Below are positions 1,567 to 21,007 of a stretch of 21,007 bases of DNA, piece by piece. The stretch lies in the IMG/VR virus record IMGVR_UViG_3300035698_001150, positions 1-21,007 of that record. One strand, written 5' to 3'. Below the pieces are notes generated by a model. It was not told the origin of the DNA, searched no databases, and saw only the letters and a program-made list of their open reading frames with translations. This DNA comes from a virus. The position numbers were made by a program, and so were the translations under genes. Position 1 is the stretch's first letter. Every line of letters begins with the position of its first letter.

Positions 1567-2400
1567 ATGTATAAACGAAAATGTTCAGAATGTGGTAGAG
1601 AAATACCTTATACAAATGAAGAATCATATAATAGAGCAACAAAACATAAAACTAAATGTATGAGTTGTTGTAAATCTGGAATAAGTAATCATATGTTTGG
1701 AAAACAGCGAACTGATAAAGAAAAACAAAATATAAGTGAATCACTTAAAGGAGAAAAACATCCAATGTACGGGAGAAAACGCCCGAAACATTCGGAAAAA
1801 ATGATAGGTGAAAATAATCCTATGTTTGGACGACATCATACTAAAAAAACTAAAAAAATATTAAGTGAACAAAAACAAGGAAAGAAAAATCCTGAACAAT
1901 CTAAAAGAATGTTAGGTGAAAATAATCCATCAAAAAGAGTAGATGTTAGAAGAAAATTAAGTGAAAATACTACTGGTAAAAATAATCCAATGTACGGTAA
2001 AAAACGAACATATGAAGAAAAACGAAAACTTAGTGAAGCAAATAAAGGAGTAAAACGTTCTGAAGAAACTCGTAAAAATATGAGATTATCTGCTATTAAA
2101 AGAATTGAAAAAGCTAAATTTAATGGTGGACAGTTAATACCTGGATATAATCCTGAAGCTTGTAAAATTATAGATGAATATGGTGAAAAACATGGATATA
2201 ATTTTCAACATGCTGAAAATGGTGGAGAGGTCTGTATAGGTGGATATTTTCCTGATGGGTTGGATGCGGAACGGGAAACGATAATAGAAATAGATGAAAA
2301 ACAACATTTTAATGTAGACGGAACATATATAAAAAAAGATATAAAACGACAAAAATATCTTGAAAATTTGGGATATAAAATGATAAGATTAACAATATAA
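1567..2400 (+). CDS. Homing endonuclease 1: zinc finger, NUMOD3-type repeats, Vsr-like nuclease
   Basis: A 277-residue free-standing homing endonuclease candidate. The N-terminus has a four-cysteine finger (C6, C9, C31, C34). Residues 41-175 consist of repeated NUMOD3-like DNA-binding units built on GENNPMFG/GKNNPMYG followed by basic K.SE segments. The C-terminal 60 residues carry a Vsr/PD-(D/E)XK-like core: a strand ending in PDGLDAE, then IIEIDEKQHF (E241, D243, H247), then KKDIKRQKYLENLGYKMIRL. The lysine-rich composition is typical of these selfish genes. It is placed between the SAP-like gene and the tail tube gene, with GAGAGGATG as ribosome-binding site; two earlier ATGs at 1560 and 1563 hit stops at once. 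No intron boundary was seen, so it is called free-standing. The nuclease family assignment is by motif reading only. Confidence 0.8.
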   Translation: MYKRKCSECGREIPYTNEESYNRATKHKTKCMSCCKSGISNHMFGKQRTDKEKQNISESLKGEKHPMYGRKRPKHSEKMIGENNPMFGRHHTKKTKKILSEQKQGKKNPEQSKRMLGENNPSKRVDVRRKLSENTTGKNNPMYGKKRTYEEKRKLSEANKGVKRSEETRKNMRLSAIKRIEKAKFNGGQLIPGYNPEACKIIDEYGEKHGYNFQHAENGGEVCIGGYFPDGLDAERETIIEIDEKQHFNVDGTYIKKDIKRQKYLENLGYKMIRLTI

Positions 2401-3026: not shown

Positions 3027-4760
3027 ATGAATAATTTTTGTAAAATATGTAAAAAATCATTTAAGAGTTCTCTCTCATTATCTAAACATATTAATAATTA
3101 TCATAAATTGTCAAAAAAACAATATATAATTCAGTATGAATTAAATGGTAAATATCCTAAATGTAAATGTGGTTGTGGTCAATATACTAATTTTACTCGC
3201 GGTAAATTCTCTGATTATATAAATGGTCATTGTCCTATGACGAGTGAATCATTAAAAAAACGATTTGAGACAAATTTAAAAAAGTATGGTTATATAACTC
3301 CATCTAAAAATAAAAAAGTAATAGAAAAAAGTAAAAAAACTTCAATTAAACGGTATGGAGTAAATAATCCTTCAAAATCAGAAGAAGTAAAAAATAAAAT
3401 TAAACAAACAAATTTAGAACGATATAACGTTGAATATACATGGCAATCAGAAGAAGTAAAAAATAAAATTAAGCAAACAAATTTAAAACGATATAATGTT
3501 GAAAATCCATTACAATCAGAAGAAGTAAAAAATAAAATTAAACAAACTAATATTAAAAAATATGGCGTAGAAAATTCATTTCAATCAGAAGAAGTAAAAA
3601 ATAAAATTAAACAAACTAATATTAAAAAATATGGTGTTGAATATCCATCACAATCTATTGTTATTAAAGAAAAAATAAAATTAAATTTATTAAAAACATT
3701 TTATGATAGATTGAAATGCTCAATTATATTAAATGAAAAAATTATACCATTATTTACAGTAGATGAATATACTGGGGTTAAATTAAATCAACGATATAAA
3801 TTTCAATGTAAAGAATGTAATAATGTTTTTTACGACAGATTAGATGATGGACATATACCTATATGTCGTTCTTGTAATCCTGTAAATTATCAAAAAACTC
3901 AAAATAAAATTTTAGAATATATTAAATCTATGTATCATGAAGAAATATTAGTAAATGTTAGAACAATAATTTCACCATTAGAACTTGATATTTATATACC
4001 TGAAAAGAAATTGGCTATAGAGTTTAATGGATTATATTGGCATTCTGAACTCAATGGTAAAGATAAAAAATATCATTTAAACAAAACAATTCAGTGTGAA
4101 AATAAAAATATTCATTTAATTCATATATTTGAAGACGAGTGGTTAAATAAGCAGGATATAGTAAAGAGAAGATTAAAACATATATTGGGTAAATCTGATA
4201 AAGTAATATATGCACGAAAATGTAAAATTAAAGAATTATTTTCAGAAGAAAAAAGAATATTTTTAGAACAATATCATATACAAGGAAATGATAAATCAGC
4301 TATAAAACTGGGATTATTTACTGGTGGAGAACTGGTGAGTGTAATGACTTTTGGAAAACGAAGAATATCTTTAGGTAAAAAATTAACTGAAGAAGGTGAA
4401 TATGAATTAATGAGATATGCCACTTCTGTTTCTGTTATTGGTGGTGCTGGAAAACTTTTAAGTTATTTCATTAAAAATTATAATCCTGTAAAAATAATAA
4501 GTTATGCTGATAGAAGATGGAGTCGAGGAAATTTATATGAAAAACTTGGTTTTAATAAAACAGGAGAAACTCCTGTAAATTATTGGTATTTTAAAAATGG
4601 ATATTTTATAAGAAATCACAGATTTAATTTTAGAAAAAATGTACTAAATGAAAAATTAGAAACATTTAATTCCAGTCTCACAGAATGGGAAAATATGCAA
4701 TTAGCTGGTTATAATAGAATCTGGGATTGTGGTAGCGTGAAATTTGTATTAAAAATTTAA
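3027..4760 (+). CDS. Homing endonuclease 2: zinc finger, six 23-residue repeats, Vsr/EDxHD-like nuclease, GNAT-like C-terminus
   Basis: A 577-residue modular endonuclease. Domains in order: a C2H2 finger (C5, C8, H21, H26); a CKCGCG motif at about 46-51; six head-to-tail 23-residue repeats at 72-209, the last four nearly identical (SEEVKNKIKQTN, then RY/KYG.VE.P.Q); a zinc ribbon (C261, C264, C280, C283); a Vsr/EDxHD-like nuclease core at 318-375 (ELDIYIPEKKLAIEFNGLYW, with D321, E332, H339 and the later FEDEW); and a C-terminal region, about 395-570, with a GNAT/Mom-like pattern (GLFTGGELVSVMTFG, ELMRYAT, GGAGKLLSYFIK, SYADRRWSRGNLYEKLGF) ending WDCGSVKF. From memory this architecture recurs in phage endonucleases often called Hef-like. 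TTTTAGGAT precedes the ATG. The gene lies between the tube terminator and the gp26-like gene. Function is inferred from domains. Confidence 0.82.
   Translation: MNNFCKICKKSFKSSLSLSKHINNYHKLSKKQYIIQYELNGKYPKCKCGCGQYTNFTRGKFSDYINGHCPMTSESLKKRFETNLKKYGYITPSKNKKVIEKSKKTSIKRYGVNNPSKSEEVKNKIKQTNLERYNVEYTWQSEEVKNKIKQTNLKRYNVENPLQSEEVKNKIKQTNIKKYGVENSFQSEEVKNKIKQTNIKKYGVEYPSQSIVIKEKIKLNLLKTFYDRLKCSIILNEKIIPLFTVDEYTGVKLNQRYKFQCKECNNVFYDRLDDGHIPICRSCNPVNYQKTQNKILEYIKSMYHEEILVNVRTIISPLELDIYIPEKKLAIEFNGLYWHSELNGKDKKYHLNKTIQCENKNIHLIHIFEDEWLNKQDIVKRRLKHILGKSDKVIYARKCKIKELFSEEKRIFLEQYHIQGNDKSAIKLGLFTGGELVSVMTFGKRRISLGKKLTEEGEYELMRYATSVSVIGGAGKLLSYFIKNYNPVKIISYADRRWSRGNLYEKLGFNKTGETPVNYWYFKNGYFIRNHRFNFRKNVLNEKLETFNSSLTEWENMQLAGYNRIWDCGSVKFVLKI
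3240..3653 (+). repeat. Six in-frame 69-bp tandem repeats inside homing endonuclease 2
   Basis: The stretch encodes six consecutive 23-residue units (residues 72-209). The last four copies, from 3378, are nearly identical at DNA level over their first part (tcagaagaagtaaaaaataa then aattaa.caaac). The reading frame is kept throughout, so this is a protein repeat, probably a DNA-reading array, rather than a regulatory repeat. Confidence 0.9.
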
Positions 4761-8586: not shown

Positions 8587-10656
8587 GTGGCATTAATAGA
8601 ACTTTATAATAGAAGTATATTTAAAAAATTAAAAACGACTGATTCACCTGAATTTCCTATACCGGTGGCTACTGAAATGAGTAATCCACCAGTAACAGAT
8701 ACTACGGTGATAAAATCTTTGGCTGATACATATTATGAAAATGCTCCAGTTTTACAGACGACTTATTTAGGATCAGCTGCTCAACCGCTGATAACAATTA
8801 AACCTAATGATTCTGCTGACGAATACTCAAATAAATTAAATTATACATTAACGAGAGCTGGTGCTACAGCCAGATGGTTATTAAGTCCTGAAGGATTAAA
8901 ATTTGGTTTAAATCAAGGTATATTACAAATAATGAATCCTACGATTGAAACTAAAATATGGAAACCAAATTCTATATTAAGTAATCTTATTCCTTTAACT
9001 GGTTATCATGAACGTCGGCACATGGATGCTTCAAATTTATTTGGAATTCCTGGACTTTCAATTATAACTGGTGCAGCACCAGCAACATATACTGAAGCAT
9101 TATATTCTAATGATATAAAAAGCAGAGCATATTATCAGTCGCCGATTCGTGATACTAAAGGGTCTGAATTTCCAGGTATTTTATTTGCTCAGGCTGGTGC
9201 TTATACTATGGGAATGGCTAAAACGTGGAAATCGCTTGATCCAAACAAATATGGTTTTCCAATAGGTGCTGATGGTGGTGGTCTTCCTAATTCAAATAGA
9301 TTATCTCCGTTTGATCATATGAATATAAACAAGGCATTAGCCGAAAAGGGTTGGAGATATACATTAGGTACGGGATACACACCAGTATCAGATGCACAAA
9401 TAACAATGAATAATCAATTAACAGGAACAAGTTTTCTTCAAAATTTATTAAGAAAGATTCCATTTGCGAATACTGTTATGGCTATTTTTGGATATGGTAT
9501 ATTAGGTTCTGAAGCGACAAAAATTAAAATTTTTAATAAATATAATGTGACATATTCATATTCAGCTAAAAAAGGTAAGCAAATTAGAGTAGTTAATAAT
9601 GATGGTGAAGAACTTGATACATATGATGTACAAGCCGGTGAAAGTCCGTTAGAAAGATTATTATATGCTATTACAGAAGGAACTGCTATTGGAGGGGAAA
9701 AAGCTCAAACTGGTACTACATTTGCTAATAAAGCTGCTATTCCAGGATATGATCAATATGCTCAAGCATCATTATATGATAGTAGATTAACAAAAAATCC
9801 CCAAGATAGTTCAAACAAGTTAAATTCATATTTACAAACATATGGTGATATTGTTATACGACGAGGTAGTGCTACAGCAGGTTCATTAAACATAGATAAT
9901 TTACTTGATGAACCAAAAACATATTCACAACATTTGAAGGATTCAGGTGTTTCTATGATATTAAGTCCTCAGGGTCGCGGATTTGCTGATTCTGGAAATA
10001 AAGTAGATAAAGATCGTAAAGGTGATTCATTTAATTTATTAGAATATGGTGAAGAAAAACCTACTGATGGTTCTCAGGATTTAATTCCCTTTAAATTTTA
10101 TCATATCAATAAAAGAAAATGGATTGTATTTAGAGCAAACTTAAATGGCATAACAGATAATGTAAGTCCTGAATGGAACGAGAAGGCATATATTGGTCGT
10201 GCTGACAAATTATATATTTACAAAGGAGCGACACGAAAGGTTAATTTTTCATTTTCATTAATGATTCATAATCCAAAAGAATTACAACCTGTATACGAAA
10301 AATTAAATTATTTAATGGGATTGTGTTATCCTACATATAAAGATTTGTCTGAAGGATATGGAAAATATATGGAAGCTCCATTTGTTAAACTTACAATAGG
10401 TGGATTATTTAATAATGTTGCTGGAATACTTGATGGTGGAGTAACAGTAACATTTGATGATGATATGACTTGGGAAGTGCGGGACGAACAACCGAAATCA
10501 AGATTTGATACTGAAAATATTAAAATTGCTAAATTACCAAGATTGATTAGAGTAACGATTGGTAGCTTTACGCCATTCAGTTTAGATCACCGTCCAATGA
10601 GTTCAACCTCACCATTTTATAGTGCTATAAAAGATTGGCAAAAATCAACAGTATAA
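8587..10656 (+). CDS. Baseplate protein, tube-cap/tube-initiator type (gp48/gp54-like C-terminus)
   Basis: A 689-residue protein beginning at GTG 8587 after TTGGAGAAATTAA. The N-terminal two thirds are not recognised (repeated YSNDIKSRAYYQSPIRD-type loops and Gly/Asn-rich stretches). The C-terminal 170 residues read like the tube-cap family: FRANLNGITDNVSPEWNEKA, YIGRADKLYIYKGATRKVNF, LNYLMGLCYPTYKD, then PPF/APFVKLTIGGLFNNVAGIL and PRLIRVTIGSFTPFSLDHRP. In T4, gp48 and gp54 cap the hub and start tube polymerisation. Location between tape measure and gp53 supports a baseplate role. It is larger than either T4 protein, so exact orthology is unsure. Confidence 0.65.
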   Translation: MALIELYNRSIFKKLKTTDSPEFPIPVATEMSNPPVTDTTVIKSLADTYYENAPVLQTTYLGSAAQPLITIKPNDSADEYSNKLNYTLTRAGATARWLLSPEGLKFGLNQGILQIMNPTIETKIWKPNSILSNLIPLTGYHERRHMDASNLFGIPGLSIITGAAPATYTEALYSNDIKSRAYYQSPIRDTKGSEFPGILFAQAGAYTMGMAKTWKSLDPNKYGFPIGADGGGLPNSNRLSPFDHMNINKALAEKGWRYTLGTGYTPVSDAQITMNNQLTGTSFLQNLLRKIPFANTVMAIFGYGILGSEATKIKIFNKYNVTYSYSAKKGKQIRVVNNDGEELDTYDVQAGESPLERLLYAITEGTAIGGEKAQTGTTFANKAAIPGYDQYAQASLYDSRLTKNPQDSSNKLNSYLQTYGDIVIRRGSATAGSLNIDNLLDEPKTYSQHLKDSGVSMILSPQGRGFADSGNKVDKDRKGDSFNLLEYGEEKPTDGSQDLIPFKFYHINKRKWIVFRANLNGITDNVSPEWNEKAYIGRADKLYIYKGATRKVNFSFSLMIHNPKELQPVYEKLNYLMGLCYPTYKDLSEGYGKYMEAPFVKLTIGGLFNNVAGILDGGVTVTFDDDMTWEVRDEQPKSRFDTENIKIAKLPRLIRVTIGSFTPFSLDHRPMSSTSPFYSAIKDWQKSTV

Positions 10657-18525: not shown

Positions 18526-18555
18526 TGGTCGGAATTAACGTTCCGACCATTTTTT
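18526..18555 (+). terminator. Rho-independent terminator between gp32 and uvsX
   Basis: TGGTCGGAA (18526-18534) pairs perfectly with TTCCGACCA (18541-18549) around a six-base loop, followed by six T to 18555. Readthrough or processing must supply uvsX, whose ribosome-binding site (TTTAGGAGAAC) starts just after the T run and which has no TATTTATA box of its own. Confidence 0.88.
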
Positions 18556-18571
18556 ATTTAGGAGAACATAT

Positions 18572-19744
18572 ATGAGCAAAAAAACAATAAAGAATGATTT
18601 AGCATTATCTCTTGCTGAAACATTAAATAAAAAATTTAAAACAGAAGGACAAGTTGCATATTTTATTGGTGGAGAAGTTACTCCTACTGATGTAAAGGAA
18701 TGGATTTCTACAAGCAGTCCTATTTTAGATTTAGCAATATCGAATCGTCCACATGGAGGAATACCTGTCGGTAGGATAACAGAATTAAATGGGCTTGAAG
18801 CATCTGGCAAATCACTTATAGCTGGTCACATATTAGCCGAAACACAGAGATTAGGTGGAGTGGCTGTATTTATTGATACAGAGAATGCATTAAGTCAAGA
18901 TTTTTTAGAAGCTATTGGAGTTGATGTATCGAAGATGTTATATGTTCAGTTAGATACTGCTGAGTCCATATTTGAAGCGATAGAGCATATAATTGGTGTA
19001 GCAAGAGAGGCAAATATAGATAGGCTTGTAACAATAGTTGTTGATTCATTTGCTGGCGCGTCGACTGTAGCCGAAATGGAAGGTGATTATGACAAGGATG
19101 GATGGGCAACAGGTAAGGCTATTATTTTATCAAAGGGCTTTAGAAAGATAACTCGTTTAATTGGTAAAGAACGAATTGCAGTTTTAGCAACGAATCAATT
19201 AAGAGACAAATTAGGTGTAATGTTTGGTGATAAATTTACAACATCTGGCGGAAAGGCTTTGGGTTTTCATGCATCAGTTCGTATTAGATTAAAATTAATG
19301 GGTCAAATTGTAAAAAAAGTTACTGGTGGAAAAGAAGTTATAGGAGTAAAAGTTAATGCACAAGTAATAAAAAATAGAGTAGGTCCTCCATTTAAAATTG
19401 CATTATTTGATGTATATTTTGATCGTGGAATTGATGATTCAGAACATTGGTTACAAATATTTAAAGATAATGATATTGTAATACGGTCTAATCCTGGTTC
19501 AAAAATAATAAATCAAAGTGGTGAAGAAATAAAATTTCTTAATGAAGAATGGTCTGATGTATTAAAGGATGTTGATTTAAAAGAATTTTTATATGGGAAA
19601 CTATGTGATTTACTTATTATGAAATATAAAAGTAAAGACGATGGTTTAGATATTGAAATACCTACAATTACAGAAAATGAAGATGATATTGAAAAAAAAG
19701 AAGATGATATTGAAAAAAAAGAAGATGATATTGTAGAAGAATAA
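18572..19744 (+). CDS. uvsX: UvsX RecA-like recombinase
   Basis: A 390-residue protein, almost the same length as T4 UvsX (391). It forms filaments on ssDNA and performs strand exchange for recombination-dependent replication and repair. Walker A is GLEASGKS (74-81). The RecA-type catalytic Glu is in FIDTENAL (E104). Walker B is VTIVVDSFAG (D158). Sensor and loop regions include LATNQLRD (N208, Q209) and TTSGGKALGFHASVRIRL. The start ATG 18572 has a clear Shine-Dalgarno. The C-terminus is an unusual acidic tail made of a near-perfect heptad repeat (EDDIEKK twice, then EDDIVEE) encoded by a 21-bp tandem repeat. Gene order gp32-uvsX-RNase H fits a recombination/replication cluster. Confidence 0.93.
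   Translation: MSKKTIKNDLALSLAETLNKKFKTEGQVAYFIGGEVTPTDVKEWISTSSPILDLAISNRPHGGIPVGRITELNGLEASGKSLIAGHILAETQRLGGVAVFIDTENALSQDFLEAIGVDVSKMLYVQLDTAESIFEAIEHIIGVAREANIDRLVTIVVDSFAGASTVAEMEGDYDKDGWATGKAIILSKGFRKITRLIGKERIAVLATNQLRDKLGVMFGDKFTTSGGKALGFHASVRIRLKLMGQIVKKVTGGKEVIGVKVNAQVIKNRVGPPFKIALFDVYFDRGIDDSEHWLQIFKDNDIVIRSNPGSKIINQSGEEIKFLNEEWSDVLKDVDLKEFLYGKLCDLLIMKYKSKDDGLDIEIPTITENEDDIEKKEDDIEKKEDDIVEE
19679..19741 (+). repeat. 21-bp tandem repeat encoding the acidic UvsX tail
   Basis: Two identical 21-bp copies begin at 19679 and 19700 (gaagatgatattg followed by eight A). A third, diverged after its first 13 bases, begins at 19721 and runs into the stop codon. In frame it gives EDDIEKK, EDDIEKK, EDDIVEE. 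Confidence 0.9.
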
Positions 19745-19751
19745 CATATAT

Positions 19752-19800
19752 TTTCTCAGTGAATTGATATTTATATCTGAAAGTATAATTCACTGGGAAA
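19752..19800 (+). promoter_or_regulatory. Hairpin with TATTTATA box in its loop, covering the RBS of homing endonuclease 3
   Basis: TTTCTCAGTGAATT (19752-19765) pairs with AATTCACTGGGAAA (19787-19800) over 14 base pairs with one G-U; nine central pairs (CAGTGAATT/AATTCACTG) are perfect. The 21-base loop holds the box TATTTATA (19768-19775). The 3' arm contains GGGA, the only plausible ribosome-binding site for the TTG at 19806. A transcript reading through from uvsX would fold and hide the site. One starting just after the box would lack the left arm. T4 gene e, soc and I-TevI use this logic; applying it here is inference. Confidence 0.62.
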
Positions 19801-19805
19801 CTTTA

Positions 19806-20195
19806 TTGGCTAAAAAATTCAATCGAAAACGTAAATTAACGACGAAGAGCAGAGGACAGGCAGAAGTTTCAAAGTTCTTTCGTAAAGTGGGTTATACCGT
19901 AACTGATGAATTTTACATTGAAAATTTACCTTATGATTTATACATTAAAGAATATAATCTTATTATTGAATATTATGGCGACCGCTGGCATTATCCAAAA
20001 GATGTATATCCATCTGATTTCTGGGATAAAGTAAAAAATCGATATGTTTGGGAAAAATGGGAAAAAGATGCTGCTAAAATTAAATTTGCTGAAAGTAAGG
20101 GATTTAATGTTAGAATTATTTGGGAGCATGATTGGAAAAAAATATCAAACAAAACACGGTATATAGAAAAAATGATAAATAAGTTAAAGGAATAA
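19806..20195 (+). CDS. Homing endonuclease 3: small Vsr/EDxHD-type nuclease
   Basis: A 129-residue protein from TTG 19806. The frame is open further upstream, to another TTG at 19764, but that start has no ribosome-binding site and lies in the hairpin loop. Candidate active-site residues are E20 (SRGQAEVSKFF), D44 (LPYDLYIK), E55 and H62 (IIEYYGDRWHYP) and the terminal WEHDW (E107-D109), with an AESKGFNVRIIW strand before it. This is the single-domain Vsr/EDxHD layout. The founding member of that homing family, I-Bth0305I, is associated with a phage recA gene, and this copy directly follows uvsX. The basic N-terminus (AKKFNRKRKLTTK) could contact DNA. It separates uvsX from the RNase H gene. 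A repair nuclease is a less likely alternative. Confidence 0.75.
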   Translation: MAKKFNRKRKLTTKSRGQAEVSKFFRKVGYTVTDEFYIENLPYDLYIKEYNLIIEYYGDRWHYPKDVYPSDFWDKVKNRYVWEKWEKDAAKIKFAESKGFNVRIIWEHDWKKISNKTRYIEKMINKLKE

Positions 20196-20198
20196 GTT

Positions 20199-21007
20199 AT
20201 GAATAATATAGATAGTATTCTTGCTAACATTAAACGTAGTAAAGAAGAAGAAACTAATATTAATTCAAAGGTTCTCTTAATTGATGGATTAAATATTTAT
20301 TTACGAGCATTCTCGTGCAATCCTACCATGAATGATGATGGAACACATATTGGAGGAATTACAGGATTTTTTAATTCTTTGTGTGCTGCTATTCGTCAAA
20401 TGTCTCCGACTCGTTGTGTGATTGTATTTGATGGAAAAGGTGGAAGTCAGCGACGGCGAAAAATATATGAAGAATATAAAGCTAATCGTCGTGGATTGAG
20501 AGTAAGACTTAACAGAGCATATGATTTTGAGGATGCTGACGACGAACATAAGAATGCCATGAGACAATTGTTACGTATTTCTGATTATTTAGAACAATTA
20601 CCAGTTACAGTATTAATACGTGATAATATAGAAGCTGATGATGTAATTTCTTATTTGGCTAAAGATGTATTTAATGAAAAGGTTGTCATTATGTCAACTG
20701 ATGGTGATTTTGTTCAATTAGTAAATGACAGAATATCTATATGGAATCCTCCTCACAAAAAATTATATACACCTGAATTAGTTAAAGAAAAGTATGAATT
20801 TACACCAGAGAATCACATTTATCTAAAAATAATTTCTGGCGACAAGAGTGATAATATTCCTGGGATAAAAGGTATTGGCATTAAAACAATTCAAAAAAAT
20901 CTACCATTAATAACATCAGATGTAGATATATCATGGAGCGAATTTAAAGATTATTTAGAAAAAAGTATTGATAATAAAACAGCGAAACGACTTGTTGAAG
21001 AAATGGA
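20199..21007 (+). CDS. rnh: 5'-3' exonuclease / RNase H (T4 Rnh, FEN family), 3' end cut by the window
   Basis: A partial gene of at least 269 codons, open to the window end. AAAGGAATAAGTT precedes ATG 20199, 3 bases after the homing-endonuclease stop. The product would remove RNA primers and 5' flaps from lagging-strand fragments. Metal-binding acidic residues are in order: LIDGLN (D29), FDGKGG (D78), IEADDV (E145, D147, D148), STDGDF (D168, D170) and SGDKSDNIPG (D215, D218), followed by the helix-hairpin-helix GIKGIGIKT. A helical arch region with KIYEEYKANRRG lies between. T4 RNase H is 305 residues, so perhaps 35-50 residues are missing. Confidence 0.9.
   Translation, partial: MNNIDSILANIKRSKEEETNINSKVLLIDGLNIYLRAFSCNPTMNDDGTHIGGITGFFNSLCAAIRQMSPTRCVIVFDGKGGSQRRRKIYEEYKANRRGLRVRLNRAYDFEDADDEHKNAMRQLLRISDYLEQLPVTVLIRDNIEADDVISYLAKDVFNEKVVIMSTDGDFVQLVNDRISIWNPPHKKLYTPELVKEKYEFTPENHIYLKIISGDKSDNIPGIKGIGIKTIQKNLPLITSDVDISWSEFKDYLEKSIDNKTAKRLVEEM

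Follow-up and report, generated by a model that had tools for sequence, protein, structure and literature searches.

A candidate translational switch in a promoter-bearing hairpin between uvsX and a nuclease gene of an uncultured phage

How could a nuclease be made apart from the UvsX recombinase when its gene lies directly behind uvsX? This question is raised by a 21-kb virus record that is AT-rich (30% G+C) and was analyzed over its whole length of 21,007 nt, hereafter the window. The window encodes gp32, UvsX, a tail tube protein, a baseplate hub protein and a short family-A DNA polymerase, and the phage belongs to a family of large uncultured phages. Between the end of uvsX at 19744 and the start of an RNase H-like gene at 20199 lies an open reading frame of 129 amino acids, separated from uvsX by a gap of 61 nt. 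Gene models and starts are the output of a simple ORF caller. The features of the locus are as follows.

18526 to 18555, plus strand: canonical terminator-like hairpin with a T-run in the gap between gp32 and uvsX, used below as a contrast.
18572 to 19744, plus strand: uvsX/RecA-like recombinase gene, the source of readthrough RNA, without an upstream box.
19752 to 19765, plus strand: left (5′) arm of the stem, TTTCTCAGTGAATT, which RNA started at the box is predicted to lack.
19768 to 19775, plus strand: the box TATTTATA, here extended as GATATTTATATC, a predicted promoter element without a −35 region.
19778 to 19783, plus strand: predicted transcript start zone, about 10–13 nt past the first base of the box, placed by the register of the early promoter and of T4 late promoters (PMC2988020).
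19787 to 19800, plus strand: 3′ arm of the hairpin, AATTCACTGGGAAA, with a Shine–Dalgarno-like GGGA at 19795–19798, from folding and opening energies.
19806 to 20195, plus strand: gene of the 129-aa nuclease, with a TTG start, an EDxHD/Vsr-like predicted fold and signs of purifying selection.
20199 to 21007, plus strand: 5′ nuclease/RNase H-like replication gene, named by sequence resemblance, directly 3′ of the nuclease gene and extending past the window.

A sequence-only reading of this DNA had described a 14-bp hairpin with a recurrent box in its loop and a ribosome-binding site in its 3′ arm, and most of this description was borne out. The two arms (19752–19800) form 14 bp, one of them G-U, and the box lies between them, part of it being paired in a weak upper stem in the minimum-energy fold. 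RNA from 19740 to 19840 folds with −19.6 kcal/mol, compared with −9.6 ± 2.5 kcal/mol for shuffled sequences (z −4.1), and none of 200 shuffles was as good; the hairpin thus exceeds chance expectation. In a scan for stems spanning the box the window site scored 31, and a score of at least 23 was reached by 8 of the 47 boxes lying between genes in four related phages, as against 0 of 35 in-gene boxes and 0 of 29 boxes in reverse orientation. The GGGA in the 3′ arm lies 7 nt upstream of the TTG start; the ribosome-binding site is indeed there but is weaker than had been implied, with GGGA and TTG instead of GGAG and ATG, and this weakness counts against reading the element as a switch. An Rfam search returned no known RNA family. 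An exact search of viral contigs with the 17-nt loop sequence hit 34 contigs, among which a comparable stem was found only in a relative already known, the next best scoring 23.

Is the hairpin conserved? Searches with the nuclease and with UvsX yielded four further distinct phages with a nuclease gene directly after uvsX (G001, G004, G008 and G002). In the window, G001, G004 and G008 this gene stands behind a box-bearing hairpin, which in all four is predicted to cover the site of translation initiation when the RNA reads through from uvsX; the box is placed between the arms in 4/4, so that RNA started there is predicted to lack the 5′ arm. The stems fall into two groups. Between the window and G001, whose nucleases are 75% identical, 12 of 14 pairs are kept, with one two-sided change and two changes accommodated by G-U, the two outermost pairs being lost. 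Between G004 and G008 all 15 pairs are kept, with one two-sided change and two G-U pairs. When the partners were slid by 1–3 columns, pairing dropped to 21–55% in both pair alignments; a shuffle control on these alignments was uninformative, with two sequences in each, and for the same reason covariation alone carries little statistical weight. The stronger argument, drawn from sequence comparison, is that the architecture appears to have been rebuilt: across the two groups the nucleases are 53–57% identical and the stem sequences are unrelated, and what recurs is the box between the arms, a GGGA within the 3′ arm and a TTG as start codon.

The hairpin does not accompany every such nuclease. 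In G002 the nuclease gene follows uvsX without hairpin or box, which indicates that the switch is not obligatory. The uvsX gene of G002, adjoining this nuclease gene, is apparently interrupted by an intein and another open reading frame (L004 809–2976). Two uvsX loci free of a nuclease gene (L009 and L010) have neither box nor hairpin. A search of species genomes with a nuclease profile found no relatives, and in a wider search covering 80 uvsX loci the sole nuclease neighbour was one already known and the box showed no strand bias (39 vs 37).

What is the box? In the window, TATTTATA occurs 12 times where 6.7 copies are expected, so it is recurrent as claimed, and its intergenic copies are all on the coding strand, mostly 35–56 nt upstream of a start. 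Taking the window, G001, G004 and G008 together, it is the commonest oriented word in gaps: on the coding strand the gaps (20.2 kb) hold 47 copies and the genes (244 kb) 35, compared with 4 and 25, respectively, for the reverse complement. In the 168-kb relative G004 it is the top oriented 8-mer upstream of genes (21–22 vs 3–6 for the reverse complement, several of whose sites look like spurious open reading frames), and the enrichment extends to G002 (28 vs 10) and to Microcystis phage Mel-JY01 (11 vs 2). As a control, the same script, applied to part of T4, picked out different upstream words and did not return TATTTATA.

When extended, the consensus reads TATATTTATAtaT(A/G), and no −35 is conserved. 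A second promoter class, CAGTTGACA-17-TATATT, stands in uniform form before small, mostly unidentified genes of G004, G002 and G008 and is probably early. The box shares the TATATT −10 hexamer with this early, primary-sigma-like promoter (TTGACA-17-TATATT) and extends it, but differs from it in that TTGAC is found upstream in just 2 of 66 box promoters. T4 late promoters likewise consist of a single box without a −35 (PMC2988020), a layout that the single TATA-like box here shares. The T4 box itself is TATAAATA, whereas the box here is TATATTTATA; in coding-strand gaps the 47 copies of TATTTATA compare with four of TATAAATA. The earlier reading had spoken of a different box orientation; this is better explained by a −35-less promoter that incorporates TATATT than by a flipped T4 box, and, since the box is an extension of the clade's own hexamer, its likeness to a T4 late box in reverse is probably a coincidence. 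Among the genes with a box are those for tail sheath, portal, tail fibres and head–tail adaptor, and also, outside the virion, ribonucleotide reductase, a primase-like gene and gp32. Since it is used mainly by virion genes, the box is probably a late phage promoter. The gp32 gene, directly upstream of uvsX, has its own box, and readthrough RNA may therefore also be late. No late sigma factor of the gp55 type turned up in the related contigs with phrog_234, phrog_12791, PF04542 or phmmer (query T4 gp55), though the contigs may be incomplete or the protein divergent. No relevant mention of TATTTATA as a promoter in phages came up in a literature search.

Does starting RNA at the box change access to the start codon? 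The energy cost of unfolding positions −16 to +6 relative to the start codon was computed on readthrough RNA and on RNA begun 13 nt past the first base of the box. For the nuclease genes this cost is lower on box-started RNA by 12.2 (window), 11.9 (G001), 18.1 (G004) and 11.6 (G008) kcal/mol, values little altered by shifting the RNA start by up to 6 nt either way, compared with a median drop of about 1 kcal/mol for box genes. By these predicted energies the start-site block would be kept on readthrough RNA and lost on box-started RNA. The same metric recovers gene e (14.9) and I-TevII (11.5) of T4, and does not recover the known case soc (1.8).

A drop above 7 kcal/mol was found for nine of 73 box genes in six phages: the four nuclease orthologues, genes for an HNH and a GIY-YIG/NUMOD3 nuclease in G002, a NUMOD3/DUF559 nuclease gene and a tail-fibre gene in G004, and one doubtful open reading frame of Mel-JY01 that scores 7.5 and may be spurious. 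This amounts to 7 of 10 nuclease genes as against 2 of 63 others (p 2e-6), or 4 of 7 against 2 of 63 when orthologues are counted once (p 5e-4), p values that are descriptive because both the cut and the list of nucleases were set after the ranking had been seen. The hairpins of the HNH and GIY-YIG/NUMOD3 genes (G002 L158:3904–4593 and L167:15981–17009) and of the NUMOD3/DUF559 gene (G004 L028:6903–7712) are unrelated in sequence, and each holds the box while burying the start. The G004 tail-fibre gene (1757 aa) follows a gp46/47-like gene, and a single hairpin contains its box, GGAGA and ATG (L027 around 19106; reverse-complement position 9240); in G002 the gp46/47 gene is not followed by this hairpin.

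Taken together, the element is quite likely a translational switch like that of I-TevI and gene e in T4. RNA entering from uvsX would hold both arms and fold, hiding the GGGA together with the bases immediately ahead of the TTG, and the nuclease would not be made. RNA started by the box, a putative −35-less and probably late promoter used mainly by virion genes, would begin at about 19778–19783 without the 5′ arm, leaving the start site open for translation, which would be weak because of the TTG start. The nuclease would thus be uncoupled from uvsX and made only while the box promoter is active. The activity of this promoter, its timing and the translation of its RNA are what we infer from these computations.

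Those predictions of the sequence-only reading that sequence analysis could address all held, and the T4 precedents that it named (I-TevI, gene e and soc) agree with the literature. Readthrough RNA of I-TevI, I-TevII, I-TevIII, segB and Aeh1 mobE has its ribosome-binding site masked by a hairpin (PMC2988022), and the start regions of e and soc of T4 are sequestered unless RNA begins at an internal late promoter (PMC3014915). As with these endonuclease genes, the nuclease gene of the window lies inside a transcription unit of nucleotide or DNA metabolism, and the promoter lies within the hairpin, so that its RNA is predicted to lack the 5′ arm. Unlike T4, the phages here are not Tevenvirinae by their sequences, the start codon is TTG, and the window nuclease is EDxHD/Vsr-like by its model, whereas the T4 and Aeh1 nucleases are GIY-YIG or HNH. 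The e and soc genes encode lysis and virion products and are unrelated in sequence, whereas the gene in the window encodes a putatively selfish nuclease; they are late genes behind early genes, a layout that the G004 tail-fibre gene shares.

The main rival of the translational switch is that the hairpin is principally an intrinsic terminator of uvsX with an embedded promoter, which would stop uvsX RNA and restart transcription at the box, the target being RNA polymerase instead of the ribosome. Intergenic terminator hairpins are common in these phages. All four phages have a canonical one, with a GC stem, a short loop and a T-run, directly before the ribosome-binding site of uvsX (window 18526–18555, L005, L006 and L008), and Mel-JY01 has a terminator-like hairpin without a box between uvsX and the RNase H gene; after the gp32–uvsX terminator no recognisable promoter for uvsX was seen in the four phages. 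TTTTTT also follows the stem in G001, as it does the hairpin of the G004 NUMOD3/DUF559 nuclease gene. However, the usual T-run follows the uvsX–nuclease stem in only one of the four phages, being absent in the window, whereas it is present in 4/4 at gp32–uvsX, and the start region stays buried in 4/4; for these reasons we disfavour a terminator and give it a small chance of being the main function. Moreover, the start codon comes almost directly after the stem in G004 and G008, strong termination would cut off the downstream replication genes, and the window hairpin was not among the calls of a terminator scan, although the loop limit of that scan would exclude such a loop. Either a terminator or a translational block would separate the nuclease from transcription of uvsX, and the two may coexist.

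Could the inverted repeat work as DNA instead? I-TevI represses its own late promoter through an overlapping operator (PMC2988022), and here too the repeat flanks a promoter box, so an operator for a dimeric protein, such as the nuclease repressing itself, can be conceived. It is highly improbable because changes in the stem are tolerated as G-U, which fits RNA and breaks DNA symmetry, and because the stem sequence is not kept between the two groups despite nucleases that are 53–57% identical. An operator resembling a homing site in uvsX or the downstream gene was also considered; the best match was 16/20, equalled by 19 of 60 shuffles and so not beyond chance. Hairpins at gene ends often stabilise RNA, a common role for such structures, and this one might merely protect or process the mRNA, its overlap with the box being accidental. 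We hold this reading to be very unlikely, as a box in the loop and a buried start are found together in eight genes, seven for nucleases of several kinds and one for a tail fibre, and are concentrated on nuclease genes.

The translational switch would extend a textbook device of T4 to another phage group, another promoter element and another nuclease family. One locus offers two unrelated stem sequences with the same layout, and their comparison can test why homing endonucleases need delayed translation. The signature of a box plus a drop in opening energy at the start can be read from a genome; it recovers e and I-TevII of T4 and finds new cases. There is perhaps an even chance that phages outside the Tevenvirinae have repeatedly and independently placed their own promoter in start-burying hairpins before at least four kinds of nuclease genes, which would make this a general solution for taming homing endonucleases and not a peculiarity of T4.

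What, finally, is the nuclease? Pfam gave a sub-threshold match to MTES_1575, PHROGs gave homing/HNH endonuclease families, and a sequence search of the PDB returned nothing. An AF2 model made from five sequences (pLDDT 76) matches best the catalytic domain of the EDxHD homing endonuclease I-Bth0305I (PDB 3r3p, E 8e-4) and then Vsr (1vsr, E 8.5e-3), and conserved acidic and histidine residues are present. The model thus resembles a Vsr-like catalytic fold, in line with the claim that the nuclease family is unrelated to that of I-TevI, which is GIY-YIG. Between the window and G001, dN is 0.15 and dS 0.87 (dN/dS about 0.18), which implies a functional product under purifying selection. The term homing endonuclease follows from family resemblance: the 129 residues would roughly suffice for a catalytic domain by itself, and as no separate DNA-binding region is evident, a stably inherited nuclease is as possible as a homing one. 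Two more open reading frames resembling homing nucleases flank the tail tube gene of the window (1567–2400 and 3027–4760), neither with a box hairpin; their domains are NUMOD3/DUF559 in one and DUF7487 repeats, a zinc finger and MTES_1575 in the other.
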